Of a stretch of DNA of 64,000 nt, positions 6,556-37,084 are shown one piece after another. The DNA lies in NCBI GenBank assembly GCA_903907995.1, contig CAIVQH010000024.1, forward strand, positions 62,001 through 126,000, given 5' to 3'. Below the pieces are notes generated by a model. It did no database searches, had not been told where the DNA came from, and saw only the letters and a list, made by a program, of their open reading frames with translations. Position numbers and translations under genes: made by a program. The stretch is from an uncultured Verrucomicrobiota bacterium (lineage in GTDB: Bacteria; Verrucomicrobiota; Verrucomicrobiia; Limisphaerales; UBA9464). Positions within the stretch are counted from its first letter, which is position 1. Every line of letters starts with the position of its first letter.

Positions 6556-7680
6556 TTATTTCTGAACCCGCTCCGAAGCGTCGGCTCGCTGTCGGATCTG
6601 CGCCAGTGCCCAGATGGCATGTTCGGCAATCAGCGGTTCGGGATCGGCGACCGCGCGTTCCAGCGCGGGAATTGCCGACGCATCGCCGACATTCCCCAGC
6701 GCCACGCACACGTTACGCAACAGTCCGCGCCGCTTGGTCCGCAGGACCGGTGAGCCGGCGAACTTCGCCTTGAACGAGGAGTCATCCAGCGCCAGCAGGG
6801 CGAGCAGATCGGGTCGGATGAGGTCGGGTCGGGCGTGCGCCTTCATGAGCTGGCCTTCGCGGGCGAAGCGGTTCCACGGGCACGCGGCCAGGCAGTCATC
6901 GCAGCCGTAGATATGGTCGCCAATGAGCGGGCGCAGCTCGACCGGGATGCTGCCCTTCAGCTCGATCGTGAGGTAGGAGATGCAGCGGCGCGCATCCAGC
7001 GTGAAGGGCGCGGGCAGGGCCTGCGTGGGGCACGCCGTGAGGCAGCGCGTGCAGGAGCCACAGTGGTTGTGCTCCGCCGCATCCGGCTCCAGGGCAAGTG
7101 TCGTCAGGATTTCGGCGAGGAAGAACCAGTTCCCCAGTGAACGCGAAATCAGGTTTGTATGTTTGCCCACGAACCCCAGCCCGGCGCGCTGGGCCAGGTC
7201 GCGCTCCAGTACCGGCCCCGTGTCCACGTACCACAGCGAACGGGTACCGGCACCGCCGAGTTGATCGACAAACGCACTGAGCTGCTTCAACGGCTCCGCC
7301 AGCACATCGTGGTAGTCGGCGTAGCGGGCGTAGCGGGCAACTTGGCCGGAGTTATGAGTTTCGGGTTTCGGGTTTCGAGTTTCGGCGTGCGCGCGTCGGA
7401 CAGCTGTTCCCTGCTCGTCATTCGACACTCGCAATTCGAAATTCCGTGGCTCGTCACTTTCATAGCTTGCGGCGAGCACGACCAAGCTCTTGGCACCGGG
7501 CAGCACGAGCTGCGGGTCAGTGCGCTTCGCCGCGTTGCGGGCCAGCCAGGCCATTTCGCCGTGACGGCCCTCGGCCACGGCCTGCTGGAACTTCGCCGCG
7601 CTGGCCGGCGGTTCGGCGGAGGTGATGCGACAGGCCTCAAAGCCGAGCTCGCGGGCACGTTGCTGGACGGCGGCCTTCAC
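6556..7680 (-). CDS. queG: Epoxyqueuosine reductase
   Basis: A 374-residue cobalamin- and 4Fe-4S-dependent enzyme that reduces epoxyqueuosine to queuosine in tRNA, the last queuosine step. Visible hallmarks: catalytic-loop YVDTGPVLERD (Asp153), two ferredoxin-type cysteine sets (Cys207, 210, 213, 217 in CGSCTRCLTACP; Cys260, 263, 267 in CDDCLAACPWN, plus Cys233), and a HEAT-like C-terminal tail (RRGLLRNVCVALGNVGD). Oddly, residues about 79-110 form an arginine/asparagine/proline-rich segment between AASYESDEP and GQVARYARYADYHD, where relatives have only a short linker; its DNA looks like an inserted intergenic repeat kept in frame. aroK ends 12 bases before the window coordinate where this gene starts, so aroK and queG are probably cotranscribed. 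Confidence 0.92.
   Translation of the reverse strand: MKAAVQQRARELGFEACRITSAEPPASAAKFQQAVAEGRHGEMAWLARNAAKRTDPQLVLPGAKSLVVLAASYESDEPRNFELRVSNDEQGTAVRRAHAETRNPKPETHNSGQVARYARYADYHDVLAEPLKQLSAFVDQLGGAGTRSLWYVDTGPVLERDLAQRAGLGFVGKHTNLISRSLGNWFFLAEILTTLALEPDAAEHNHCGSCTRCLTACPTQALPAPFTLDARRCISYLTIELKGSIPVELRPLIGDHIYGCDDCLAACPWNRFAREGQLMKAHARPDLIRPDLLALLALDDSSFKAKFAGSPVLRTKRRGLLRNVCVALGNVGDASAIPALERAVADPEPLIAEHAIWALAQIRQRADASERVQK
7351..7446. repeat. Repeat-like insertion inside queG
   Basis: 96 bases (32 codons) made of near-tandem GGGTTTCGAGTTTCGG-like units at one end and AATTCGAAATTCC at the other. The composition differs from the flanking queG sequence and the encoded segment (NFELRVSNDEQ...ETRNPKPETHN) has no counterpart in the QueG family as I know it. 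It keeps frame and has no stop. Confidence 0.5.
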
Positions 7681-19385: not shown

Positions 19386-19448
19386 GCTCCCTTTCCCCTC
19401 TGCACGCCGTTTCGCTCCGCGCTCCGCGTTCCCCGCTCCGCGCTCAGA

Positions 19449-34307: not shown

Positions 34308-35624
34308 TCAGATCGCGAAGTCGTTGTACTCGGGCTTCACCGGCTCCAGCGGGGGTTGAAGCATGCCGGCACCGACGGTGGCGTTGGTGCCCTGCTCGAT
34401 GAGGATGAACGAGCCGGTCAGCCGGTTCGTCGCGTACCCGTCGAAAACCAGCGGCTTGGAGACCTTCAGGCGGATCTCGCCGATATCGTTCATCGTCAGT
34501 TCGGCCGGCTCGGGCTGCGGCTCGTAGGTGTGGATGTCGATGCGGTTTTCCAGCGAGGTCACCACGGCCTGCACGGTCTGGGTGGTGTGCTTGAGGAAAT
34601 ACTTCTTCCCCCGCTGGAGCGGGCGCGGGTGCATCCAGGCGATGCGGGCGTGCAGCTCGGTGTTCGCGCCGGGCATGGAATCGAGGCCGACGACCATGTC
34701 GCCCCGGCTGATGTCGAGATCATGCTCCAGCACGAGCGTGACGGACTGCGGGCAGAAGGCCTCCTGGAGCGGGCCGCTGTAGGTCCAGATCTCCTTCACG
34801 GTGCTCTTCAGGCCGCTGGGCAGCACCATGACCTTCTGGCCGAGCTTCACCGTGCCGCCGGCGATCTGGCCGCTCAGGCCGCGGAAGTCGTGCAGTTTCG
34901 GATCGCGCGGGTTGTTGGGCCGGTTCACCCACTGCACCGGGAAGCGGAAGCCCTGCAGGTTCCAGTCGCTGGCGATGTGCACATCCTCCAGGTGGCCGAG
35001 CAGGGTCGGGCCGACGTACCAGGGCGTGTGCTTCGAGGCATCGACGACGTTGTCGCCGTTGAGCGCGCTCATCGGAATGAATTTTACATCCTTCATGTCG
35101 AGGCGCGGCAGGAAGGACTCGAAGTTGTCGCGGATCTCGAGGAACCGCTCCTTGCTCCAGTCCACTAGGTCCATCTTGTTCACCGCGATGACGAGGTGCG
35201 GGATGCGCAGCAGCGAGGCGATGTAGGTATGCCGGCGCGACTGCTCGATGACGCCCTGGCGCGCATCGACGAGCACGATGGAGAGGTTTGCGGTCGAGGC
35301 GCCCGTGACCATGTTGCGCGTGTACTGCACATGCCCCGGGGTATCCGCCACGATGAACTTGCGGCGCGGTGTGGCGAAGTAGCGGTAGGCCACGTCGATC
35401 GTGATGCCCTGCTCCCGCTCGGCGCGGAGGCCGTCGGTCAGGTTGGCGAGATTGATCTGGCCGCCACCGGTGATGTCGGCGGAGCGCTCCAACGCCTCCA
35501 ACTGGTCCTCCATGAGGTTCTTGGAGTCATAGAGGAGCCGGCCGATGAGGGTGGATTTGCCGTCGTCCACACTGCCGCAGGTGTTGAAGCGGAGCAGTTC
35601 GATGGGATGGGTGGCGGAAGACAT
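34308..35624 (-). CDS. cysN: Sulfate adenylyltransferase subunit 1 (GTPase)
   Basis: 438 residues. The GTPase motifs are complete: GSVDDGKST (17-25), DTPGH (94-98) and NKMD (149-152), with the switch region EREQGITIDVAYRYF. CysN hydrolyses GTP to drive CysD-catalysed formation of adenosine phosphosulfate from sulfate and ATP. The length shows no fused APS-kinase domain, which is present in CysNC forms. It is the last cys gene of the minus-strand operon and is separated from cysD by a four-helix-bundle gene with flanking inverted repeats. Confidence 0.96.
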   Translation of the reverse strand: MSSATHPIELLRFNTCGSVDDGKSTLIGRLLYDSKNLMEDQLEALERSADITGGGQINLANLTDGLRAEREQGITIDVAYRYFATPRRKFIVADTPGHVQYTRNMVTGASTANLSIVLVDARQGVIEQSRRHTYIASLLRIPHLVIAVNKMDLVDWSKERFLEIRDNFESFLPRLDMKDVKFIPMSALNGDNVVDASKHTPWYVGPTLLGHLEDVHIASDWNLQGFRFPVQWVNRPNNPRDPKLHDFRGLSGQIAGGTVKLGQKVMVLPSGLKSTVKEIWTYSGPLQEAFCPQSVTLVLEHDLDISRGDMVVGLDSMPGANTELHARIAWMHPRPLQRGKKYFLKHTTQTVQAVVTSLENRIDIHTYEPQPEPAELTMNDIGEIRLKVSKPLVFDGYATNRLTGSFILIEQGTNATVGAGMLQPPLEPVKPEYNDFAI

Positions 35625-35627
35625 GCG

Positions 35628-36069
35628 GAGCAGATGGGAGATGGAAGATGGGAGATGGGAGTTAGGCGGATGCAGTTCGCAGCCGGGTGGAGCGGATGAG
35701 GCCTGAGATCAGGCGGCCAGTTTGGCTGACCAACGACAGCAACTGTTGCTGCTCAGTTGCTGAAATATAGCCGGCATCGAGCATTACATAAGAAAGGGAG
35801 CGAACTTCGCCGCAGGAGGCGCGGACTATGTTGTAGAACTGAAGCTTTTCCAATGCATGAACGCGTTCGAAGCCTTCGGCAACATTGGTCATGGCGGACA
35901 CGGCAGCGCGTTGTGCCTGATCTCTCAGGCCAAATTCCTTGGCCGCGAGTGGGCGACGAAAGCACTCGTAAACAAGGCGCACCAATTCCCTGGCGACCTT
36001 CCAGGCCTCCAGTTCCTCAAACGCGTTGATCTTCGCAGCCATCTCCCAACTCCCATCTCCTATCTGCTC
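35628..36069. mobile_element. Putative mobile cassette: four-helix-bundle gene inside 31-bp inverted repeats
   Basis: Left repeat 35628-35658 and right repeat 36039-36069 are imperfect inverted copies (28 of 31 positions match: GAGCAGATrGGAGATGG then rAGwTGGGAGATGG). They enclose one gene; the gene's start codon lies in the right repeat, and cysD's stop codon overlaps the outer edge of that repeat. The unit fills the cysD-cysN junction almost exactly (cysN starts at 35624). No transposase is encoded and no clear target duplication is visible, so mobility is inferred from structure. A gene-less relative is at 37014-37084. Confidence 0.5.
35662..36042 (-). CDS. Four-helix-bundle protein (23S rRNA intervening-sequence-protein family)
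   Basis: 126 residues, all helical by appearance, matching the four-helix-bundle/IVS protein family: INAFEELEAWKVARELVRLV near the start, FGLRDQAQRAAVSAMTNVAEGFER in the middle and LQFYNIVRASCGEVRSLSYV later. Family members occur inside 23S rRNA intervening sequences and scattered through many genomes; a distant relative (Avd) assists diversity-generating retroelements. No biochemical role is established. Here it interrupts the cysD-cysN pair and is enclosed by inverted repeats. It does not look functionally related to sulfate assimilation. Confidence 0.88.
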   Translation of the reverse strand: MAAKINAFEELEAWKVARELVRLVYECFRRPLAAKEFGLRDQAQRAAVSAMTNVAEGFERVHALEKLQFYNIVRASCGEVRSLSYVMLDAGYISATEQQQLLSLVSQTGRLISGLIRSTRLRTASA

Positions 36070-37006
36070 AGAAATATCCCGCCTTCTTGCGGTCTTCCAT
36101 CGCGGCTTCGCTGGCCTTGTCGTCGGCGCGGGTGCCGCGCTCGGTCACGCGGGCGGCGGCGATCTCATCAATGATGCCATCCACGCTGAAGACTTTGGAT
36201 TCAATCATGCCGGTGCTGATCATGTCGGCGATGGTGCGCACGCGTACGACCAGCTTCATGATGACTTCGCTTGGTTTGGGTCGCGCACCGGCAAACGGAT
36301 CGGGTTTTGTCAGATCGGTGTGGGGCGGCGGAACGGGCAGCCATTGGCCACCTCGGCGGAAGCAGTCGCGTTCATGGCTGAAATAGATGTTCGGCACCTC
36401 CAGCTTTTCCTGCCGGATGTATTCCCATACGTCCATCTCGGTCCAGTTGGAGAGAGGAAAGACGCGCATGTTTTCGCCGGCATTGAGGCGGGCGTTGTAC
36501 ACGTTCCAGATCTCGGGCCGCTGGCTCTTCGGGTCCCATTGGCCGAAGCCGTCGCGGAAGCTGAAAAAGCGTTCTTTGGCGCGGGCCTTCTCCTCGTCGC
36601 GCCGCGCGCCACCGATGGCGCAGTCGAAGCGGAATTCTTCAATGGCACCAAGCAGCACGGGAATCTGCAGCTTGTTGCGGCTGATCTCGCCGGGCGCAAC
36701 CATCGCCGTGCCGTTGGCGATGGCCTGGTCCACGGTGCGGACGATGAGCTTCGCGCCCAATTCCTTTGCCCGGCGGTCGCGGAACTCGATCAGTTCCGGG
36801 AACTCGTGGCCCGTCTCGACGTTCAAGAACGGCATCGGTAGGTCCGAAGGGCGGAAGGCCTTCTCGGCGAGCCGGAGCAGACAGATGGAGTCCTTGCCGC
36901 CGGAGAAGAGGAGCACGGGCCGCTCAAACTCCGCCGCCACCTCACGCATGATGTGGATGGCTTCGGTCTCCAAATATTGAAGATGATCCAGTTGGTAAGA
37001 GGACAT
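36068..37006 (-). CDS. cysD: Sulfate adenylyltransferase subunit 2
   Basis: 312 residues from the ATG at 37006 (MSSYQLDHLQYLETEAIHI); the frame is open upstream but that part is repeat-derived and not conserved. The ATP-pyrophosphatase PP-loop is LLFSGGKDS near residues 33-40. Further CysD marks: FRPSDLPMPFLNVETGHEFPE-like segment, CAIGGARRDEEKARAKER, and the C-terminal EAAMEDRKKAGYF. With CysN it activates sulfate to adenosine phosphosulfate. It lies between cysH upstream and the four-helix-bundle cassette downstream. Confidence 0.96.
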   Translation of the reverse strand: MSSYQLDHLQYLETEAIHIMREVAAEFERPVLLFSGGKDSICLLRLAEKAFRPSDLPMPFLNVETGHEFPELIEFRDRRAKELGAKLIVRTVDQAIANGTAMVAPGEISRNKLQIPVLLGAIEEFRFDCAIGGARRDEEKARAKERFFSFRDGFGQWDPKSQRPEIWNVYNARLNAGENMRVFPLSNWTEMDVWEYIRQEKLEVPNIYFSHERDCFRRGGQWLPVPPPHTDLTKPDPFAGARPKPSEVIMKLVVRVRTIADMISTGMIESKVFSVDGIIDEIAAARVTERGTRADDKASEAAMEDRKKAGYF

Positions 37007-37013
37007 GGAAAGA

Positions 37014-37084
37014 AAATGGGAGTTGGCAGTTGGAAGTTGGCGGCCAAAGTGCCCCATTTCCCAACTGCGATCTGCTAACTGCTC
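37014..37084. repeat. Gene-less relative of the four-helix-bundle cassette repeat
   Basis: In the cysH-cysD gap, 37054-37084 matches the right cassette repeat (36039-36069) at 26 of 31 bases. Next to it, 37014-37040 carries ATGGGAGTTGGCAGTTGG, similar to the left cassette repeat. The two arms are inverted (AAATGGG at 37014-37020, CCCATTT near 37053-37059). The right arm supplies the last codons and stop of cysH. Confidence 0.5.

Follow-up and report, generated by a model that had tools for sequence, protein, structure and literature searches.

A four-helix-bundle gene between cysD and cysN

The window, that is, the whole stretch of 64,000 nucleotides that was analysed, carries a single short gene of the S23/IVS four-helix-bundle (4HB) family between cysD and cysN, bracketed by two arrays of a repeated word in inverted orientation (Table 1). 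Such a gene, with its start codon in one of two 31-bp inverted flanks matching at 28 of 31 positions, had been proposed at this junction by an earlier, sequence-only reading; profile searches and alignment confirmed both the gene with its two neighbours and the flanks. The matching arms (35628-35658 and 36039-36069) are 31 nt long, 90% complementary and 380 nt apart. Their score of 23.5 was equalled at none of 3,876 random window positions of nearly the same geometry, where the maximum was 15.5. Both arms are tandem arrays of 7-bp words, AGATGGG in 4.3 copies and CCATCTC in 3.9 copies, in inverted orientation. The right arm contains the ATG of the 4HB gene (36040-36042), and its outer end overlaps the cysD stop.

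Table 1. Coordinates, strand and supporting evidence for the 4HB unit and its surroundings in the window
Feature	Position	Strand	Evidence or remark
4HB gene (S23/IVS, PF05635), 126 aa	35662..36042	-	Pfam E 5e-25; TIGR02436 "four helix bundle protein"
Left arm, tandem AGATGGG array, inverted relative to right arm	35628..35661		Inverted-repeat and tandem-repeat detection
Right arm, CCCATCT array	36039..36069		Contains 4HB ATG, overlaps cysD stop
cysD, operon neighbour upstream of 4HB gene	36068..37006	-	NF003587
cysN, downstream neighbour of 4HB gene	34308..35624	-	TIGR02034
Gene-less inverted heptad pair, AGTTGGC-type, cysH-cysD junction	37012..37084		By eye; TRF 37017-37041

Other heptad arrays were seen in the window. 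The gene-less pair at the cysH-cysD junction overlaps the 3' end of cysH (by eye), and the genomes G001 and G007 carry a 4HB gene on the opposite side of cysD (L337 and L089). Further arrays lie at 7349-7384 (GAGTTTCG-type) and 19413-19445 (CGCTCCG), where there is no PF05635 match.

The transcript of the unit is predicted to fold with a 29-bp terminal stem with two mismatches (-190 kcal/mol, z = -5.7), and the AF2 model of the protein reached a pLDDT of 96. Foldseek matched this model to 2gsc and 2rld, whose PDB entries have five chains apiece; weaker matches were to Avd (4dwl) and to the reverse transcriptase complex of diversity-generating retroelements (DGR; 8ub7, 8ub8, and 8ube), with E values of 0.03 to 0.3 and TM scores of about 0.65 to 0.85 (TM 0.73 to 0.85 and E 0.03 to 0.09 for 4dwl). 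We take 2gsc and Avd to be pentamers. Profile searches at the thresholds used identified no nuclease or transposase family in the 126-aa protein, and a match to an integrase arm-binding domain (0.038) lay below the cutoff. Carriage by phages was rejected, as a search of 50,697 phage records at E 1e-5 gave no match to the protein, and so was a role as a defence system, as no PADLOC family was matched at E ≤ 1.

Inverted heptad arms recur around 4HB genes in many phyla

All seven PF05635 matches in the window's genome were bracketed by inverted arrays of short words, each locus using another word (GGTTTTC, GGAGTCA, AGATGGG, the 6-mer ATCTTA, ATGAATT, AAAAGGT, and AAGCTCC; words read by eye). Their inverted-arm scores ranged from 20.5 to 39.5, compared with 8 to 12.5 in direct orientation. 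Across these seven and 29 loci of relatives (n = 35, one of the 36 being left out for its short flank), the median score was 18.5 for inverted arms, 10.0 for direct ones and 9.0 when arms were swapped between loci. We also sampled named genomes, taking the best 80 of 550 relatives, which represent one subfamily by best match; 78 had usable flanks. The corresponding medians in these best-matching loci were 19.75, 9.5, and 9.0, and the 95th percentile of swapped pairs was reached by 49/78 inverted and 11/78 direct pairs, related loci not being independent of one another in any of these flank statistics. According to record titles, the named loci from the best 80 of 550 span Verrucomicrobia, Planctomycetes, Bacteroidetes, Acidobacteria, Nitrospirae, several proteobacterial groups, Chloroflexi, Armatimonadetes, and others, so that the anatomy of one 4HB gene between inverted heptad arms is found in many phyla.

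Among the periods compared, 7 alone was enriched in the arms, with a mean score of 14.7 versus 4.0 to 6.3 at periods 4 to 6 and 8 to 12. With a period-7 array defined by a score of at least 12, a threshold chosen after the data were seen, arrays were present in 83 of the 156 flanks of the named loci from the best 80 of 550 (39/78 upstream and 44/78 downstream), versus 5 of 143 control flanks located 0.9 kb away. In the same best-matching loci, 53/78 had an array on at least one side and 30/78 on both; the other 25 had none at this threshold. The loci of relatives gave a similar picture (18/35 upstream, 22/35 downstream, 25 with at least one side, 15 with both, and 2/65 in controls), with no array at threshold 12 in 10/35. 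Most arms held four or five copies of the word (57 of the 83 arms in the named loci from the best 80). The motif RGTY occurred within 70 of these 83 arm words, against 16.5 expected (maximum of 26 in 300 shuffles), having been noticed in the very set in which it was counted; in the arm words of relatives, a set partly seen before, it occurred in 22/40 (6.1 expected). Similarity between words tracked similarity between proteins (61 loci; Mantel r = 0.27, with none of 2,000 permutations as high).

Relatives of the gene were also found on plasmids, in 14 records mostly from cyanobacteria and Riemerella. All 10 of the plasmid loci examined had inverted word arms, with scores of 14.5 to 31.5 and period 7 in 8/10, these counts standing without a control set. 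One plasmid unit lies between two ribonucleotide reductase genes. On a Picosynechococcus plasmid (L329), a 4HB unit separates cas10/cmr2 from cmr3 within a type III-B CRISPR operon.

The relation between gene and arrays was visible at the level of whole genomes. Across 58 related genomes, the number of PF05635 genes correlated with the number of RGTY-heptad hits (Spearman rho = 0.66), which overlap inside one array and are thus not array counts. The correlation was 0.68 when reversed heptads were added and 0.70 when each genus was represented by a single genome (n = 32). Reversed heptads alone performed on par (0.69), so the association concerns heptad arrays as a general class. For this reason RGTY was rejected as a genome-wide code and kept as a feature of the arms only. 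Octad patterns gave weaker correlations (0.31 and 0.39; 0.36 combined). The median number of RGTY-heptad hits was 2 in the 19 genomes without a 4HB gene and 88 in the 20 genomes with at least four. Exceptions were G055, which has 35 hits and no 4HB gene, and G014, G019, and G020, which have three or four genes and 0 to 4 hits. G000 has 31 period-7 arrays over 464 kb, and G003 has 35 over 391 kb; the counts include the window arms, and some of the stretches had been picked for containing known sites. The relatives are drafts, 54 to 98% complete (54 to 96% within the genus), in which short arrays may be misassembled.

Occupancy of operon junctions and divergence of the units

The occupancy of operon junctions is patchy between species. 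We identified cysN in 47/58 genomes and examined 30 cysN loci, 21 of them with cysD too. A 4HB relative lies in the cysD-cysN junction at 6 of these 21, the window's own included: in G000, G003, G001, G006, and G037, and as a truncated gene in G007. The remaining 15 had none (tblastn, E 1e-5) and had spacers of 8 to 1,122 nt; the unit is thus not fixed at this junction, the comparison that the sequence-only reading had proposed. Two genomes, G000 and G005, carry a unit at the metK-ahcY junction. The spacer there is 31 bp in G004 and longer, without a 4HB gene, in G007, and gene-less inverted heptad pairs made of other words occupy it in G003 and G002. A unit between lpxC/fabZ and lpxA occurs in G003 and G004, and spacers are short in G000, G001, G002, G005, and G007. 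The G000 spacer resembles those of the other vacant genomes, suggesting that the vacant state is ancestral there. When inspected by eye, this one site showed no target-site duplication, and about 19 nt of the vacant G000 sequence, including the start codon of the neighbour, were missing in G003.

In the cysD-cysN or cysN-upstream region (L035, L036, L059, and L060), other inserts have reading frames resembling fragments of nucleotidyltransferases or a PIN-type toxin (by eye), making it a possible insertion hotspot. G002 carries two 4HB units at paralogous junctions (L340 and L341) whose flanks are 66 to 69% identical, as if a target sequence were recognised or the operon had been duplicated together with its unit.

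The word recurs in the genome, and the gene-bearing unit is not multicopy. Other copies of the repeat, which the sequence-only reading had proposed to look for, do exist: the arm word was found at 13 places in the genome (at most three mismatches; 25 overlapping hits before merging), two of them the unit's own arms, versus none for the reversed-pattern control. The unit named L007, present in G000 and absent from G003, has its word at at least 13 other places in G000 and at least two in G003 (merged hits, with 37 candidates scored per genome, which makes these numbers lower bounds). A multicopy gene-bearing element, which that reading would have counted as support for mobility, was not what we found: the maximum identity between 4HB proteins within each of eight genomes was 0.20 to 0.65. 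This comparison covered 42 of 44 PF05635 matches (all but the L007 gene and a single one from G007) and revealed no near-identical copies. The genes of one genome are thus only distantly related and give no sign of recent intragenomic copying, so that active transposition is not visible.

Five occupied sites are common to G000 and G003, and the genes adjoining the units have dS values of 0.19 to 0.47 between these genomes. At three of the sites, the dS of the 4HB gene is 1.28, 1.10, and 2.4, compared with 0.29/0.20, 0.40/0.44, and 0.47/0.27 for the adjacent genes; at the other two it is 0.33 and 0.09. The dN/dS ratio of the 4HB genes is 0.08 to 0.22 over the five sites and 0.08 to 0.16 at those of high divergence. 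Between G002 and G004, one of three sites, one of which has a single usable flank, shows high 4HB divergence (pS = 0.68, with flanks 96% identical). In total, at 4/8 shared sites the divergence of the 4HB gene far exceeds that of its neighbours; at the other four (L004, cysDN, L342/L347, and L340/L345) it is ordinary or low, which argues against a general local rate effect. When the four high-divergence sites were measured outward from the arms in 30-nt bins, seven of the eight flanks had regained near-background identity within one to three bins. The exception is the L006 site, where identity is reduced over about 150 nt beyond the downstream arm and where local evolution may be faster. The arm word also differs at this site, and an AU test did not reject the grouping of G000 with G003 (P = 0.275).

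We read the high divergence as the likely trace of an exchange in which a diverged relative from the same site lineage took the place of the entire cassette; the four sites of ordinary or low divergence and the AU result count against this reading, and a local rate effect may account for the divergence instead. The closest 4HB relative occupies the same site in 31/42 cases, which is also expected from plain inheritance and hence is not specific to exchange. The correlation of word similarity with protein similarity is in line with the cassette reading and is equally predicted by plain inheritance.

When the L005 site (the region of L153 9034-9414) was inspected by eye, two nested pairs of arms surrounded the 4HB gene of G000, and the left arm of the outer pair was almost the same as the sole left arm seen in G003. 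A UvrA-like protein (L092, L093, and L096) has a linker encoded by a heptad array, with the word CATCTSC in G000 and G003 and RATCCGC in G014. Insertion of a solo array into uvrA was not supported, since the length of the linker is unchanged relative to close relatives and the G014 array has another word there; the linker may reflect a change of word in place. A sorbosone-dehydrogenase-like protein (L117, L123, and L124) has a variable linker, which in G000 carries an inverted pair of the AGATGGG type. In G001 and G006, the same linker carries a GGAGATC-type array (deduced from the protein letters), the word of their cysDN unit.

A proposed site-bound cassette and its relation to known systems

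Heptad arrays might grow by slippage in weakly constrained spacers in which 4HB genes merely reside. The arrays without a 4HB gene that are common in the genus (those counted in G000 and G003) and the reversed-pattern arrays, which track 4HB number equally well, are consistent with such bystanders. Nevertheless, the arms of one gene match each other far better in inverted than in direct orientation and far better than the arms of different genes, flanks only 0.9 kb away seldom have arrays, and the genomes devoid of 4HB genes have few RGTY-heptad hits, so we regard this explanation as unlikely. The upstream array, at the start codon, might alternatively be an operator through which the 4HB oligomer controls its own translation, with the downstream arm only closing the stem; the binding mode of TRAP is an analogy for an oligomer on such an array. 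The position of the ATG within the arm, the five chains in the crystals of solved relatives (2gsc and 2rld), and the peak of four to five copies per arm all point in this direction. Autoregulation leaves unexplained the symmetric second arm, the gene-less inverted pairs, the dispersed arrays, and the fact that high divergence is mostly confined between the arms. We give it a small chance, and it may be true in addition to the cassette reading favoured below.

The sequence-only reading had seen a small mobile passenger devoid of its own transposase. What stands of it is the discrete unit of gene and inverted arms and the vacant orthologous sites of other units; a fixed terminal repeat common to the units was not found. 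A classical passenger or a miniature element (MITE) moved in trans by a transposase would account for the inverted ends, these vacant sites and the gene-less mini versions. It is very unlikely given that each unit has another word, that there are no near-identical copies, and that the lpxA site, the one inspected by eye, bore no target-site duplication. The absence of a fixed terminal inverted repeat and of identical copies led us to reject a classical transposon or MITE, and movement by a foreign transposase is not the best reading of the window unit. The Foldseek matches to Avd and to the DGR reverse transcriptase complex raise another scenario, a non-autonomous retroelement in which an Avd-like 4HB protein borrows a host reverse transcriptase. 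RVT_1 was found in 24/58 relatives, but had no match in the eight genomes of the genus (drafts 54 to 96% complete) despite their three to eight units each and many arrays, which makes a borrowed enzyme unlikely; the low dN/dS of the diverged genes is also unlike one error-prone copying event. We consider this scenario very unlikely as well.

On balance, the evidence leans modestly towards a compact cassette made of one 4HB gene and inverted arms of about four to five tandem, cassette-specific words of about 7 nt, belonging to a widespread class that is selfish and bound to its sites. In this cassette, the arms of the transcript would pair into the stem of about 29 bp and be cut by RNase III. 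Such a cut would separate the messages of cysD and cysN, and a unit placed between cistrons (or in rRNA) could thereby be tolerated. The 4HB protein, which would probably form a homopentamer as its solved relatives do, would recognise the repeated word at both ends; our most specific guess is that a pentamer reads the four to five repeats of each arm. The cassette would persist as a selfish lineage tied to its site and would pass between species in a homing-like manner, the part between the arms being replaced; recombination within the arms may be the simplest option for this, and arrays alone may scatter as by-products of the cassette.

We know of no role for S23/IVS proteins, which occur in many bacterial phyla, nor of a source for the heptanucleotide repeats of cyanobacteria, Xanthomonas, and giant sulphur bacteria. 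A simple rule ties the two together (one gene, two inverted arms, one 7-bp word), making 4HB cassettes a possible source of these puzzling seven-letter repeats. A much more tentative proposal is that PF05635 genes and bacterial heptanucleotide repeats are the halves of one system. In such a system, pentamers of the 4HB protein would recognise a 7-nt word, with about five repeats serving five subunits. The cassette, selfish and tied to its site, would be exchanged in place between species while encoding no nuclease, transposase or reverse transcriptase, and it would seed solo and paired arrays in the genome, the 23S-rRNA IVS being its best-known and atypical address. Compact units do sit inside core operons (cysDN, metK-ahcY, and lpxC-lpxA), where they may be exchanged in place across species. 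Titles and abstract openings, with subscription journals and preprints largely uncovered, made no link between 4HB/S23 genes and flanking heptad arrays, which is weak evidence of novelty; in the portion of text available, a Flavobacterium columnare paper names four-helix proteins and tandem repeats (PMC5524665).

Several known systems share part of this anatomy. In RAYT/REP systems, a gene is flanked by inverted copies of a palindromic repeat dispersed in the genome. The window unit also has its gene between inverted copies of a dispersed repeat, but its 4HB protein has no transposase family and its repeats are heptad arrays rather than palindromes. Unlike MITEs, the units have neither a fixed terminal inverted repeat nor near-identical copies. 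The patchy occupancy of fixed sites and the raised divergence that ends near the arms at 4/8 sites might fit a homing element of the intron or intein type, with the AU test at P = 0.275; the 126-aa protein of the unit matched no nuclease family at the thresholds used. The fold resembles that of Avd of the diversity-generating retroelements (4dwl and 8ub7), from which the unit differs in that RVT_1 had no match in the window's genome or in the drafts of the genus.

The arms themselves belong with dispersed tandem repeats of 7-bp words, such as the STRR of cyanobacteria. The heptanucleotide GGGAATC of Xanthomonas and Nostoc, with 70 to 75 inverted convergent pairs in Xanthomonas (PMC4692102), and the heptamer TAACTGA of Beggiatoaceae (PMC4679880), as described in the available portions of these papers, are likewise tandem and dispersed, whereas the arrays described here are tied to a 4HB gene. 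Neither "four helix" nor "S23" occurs in the main texts of the two papers as far as these are available.

The closest counterpart is the IVS in the 23S rRNA of Coxiella burnetii, for which the available part of the source describes an S23 ORF, a 28-bp terminal stem, a tandem heptamer (GACAGAT) and cleavage by RNase III in vitro (PMC4990558). Both elements hold one S23-type ORF in about 430 bp, have terminal inverted repeats with a stem of 28 to 29 bp, and contain tandem heptamers, which lie in the 5' part of the IVS. RNase III excision, measured in vitro only for the IVS of Coxiella according to the same text, would be shared by the window unit. The latter lies between two protein genes, cysD and cysN, and not within a 23S rRNA gene; since it lacks this defining location, we did not file it as an rRNA IVS. 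It also differs from the Coxiella IVS in that the word changes from unit to unit and the pattern recurs at several junctions per genome. The window unit probably works like, and is, an IVS-type element.
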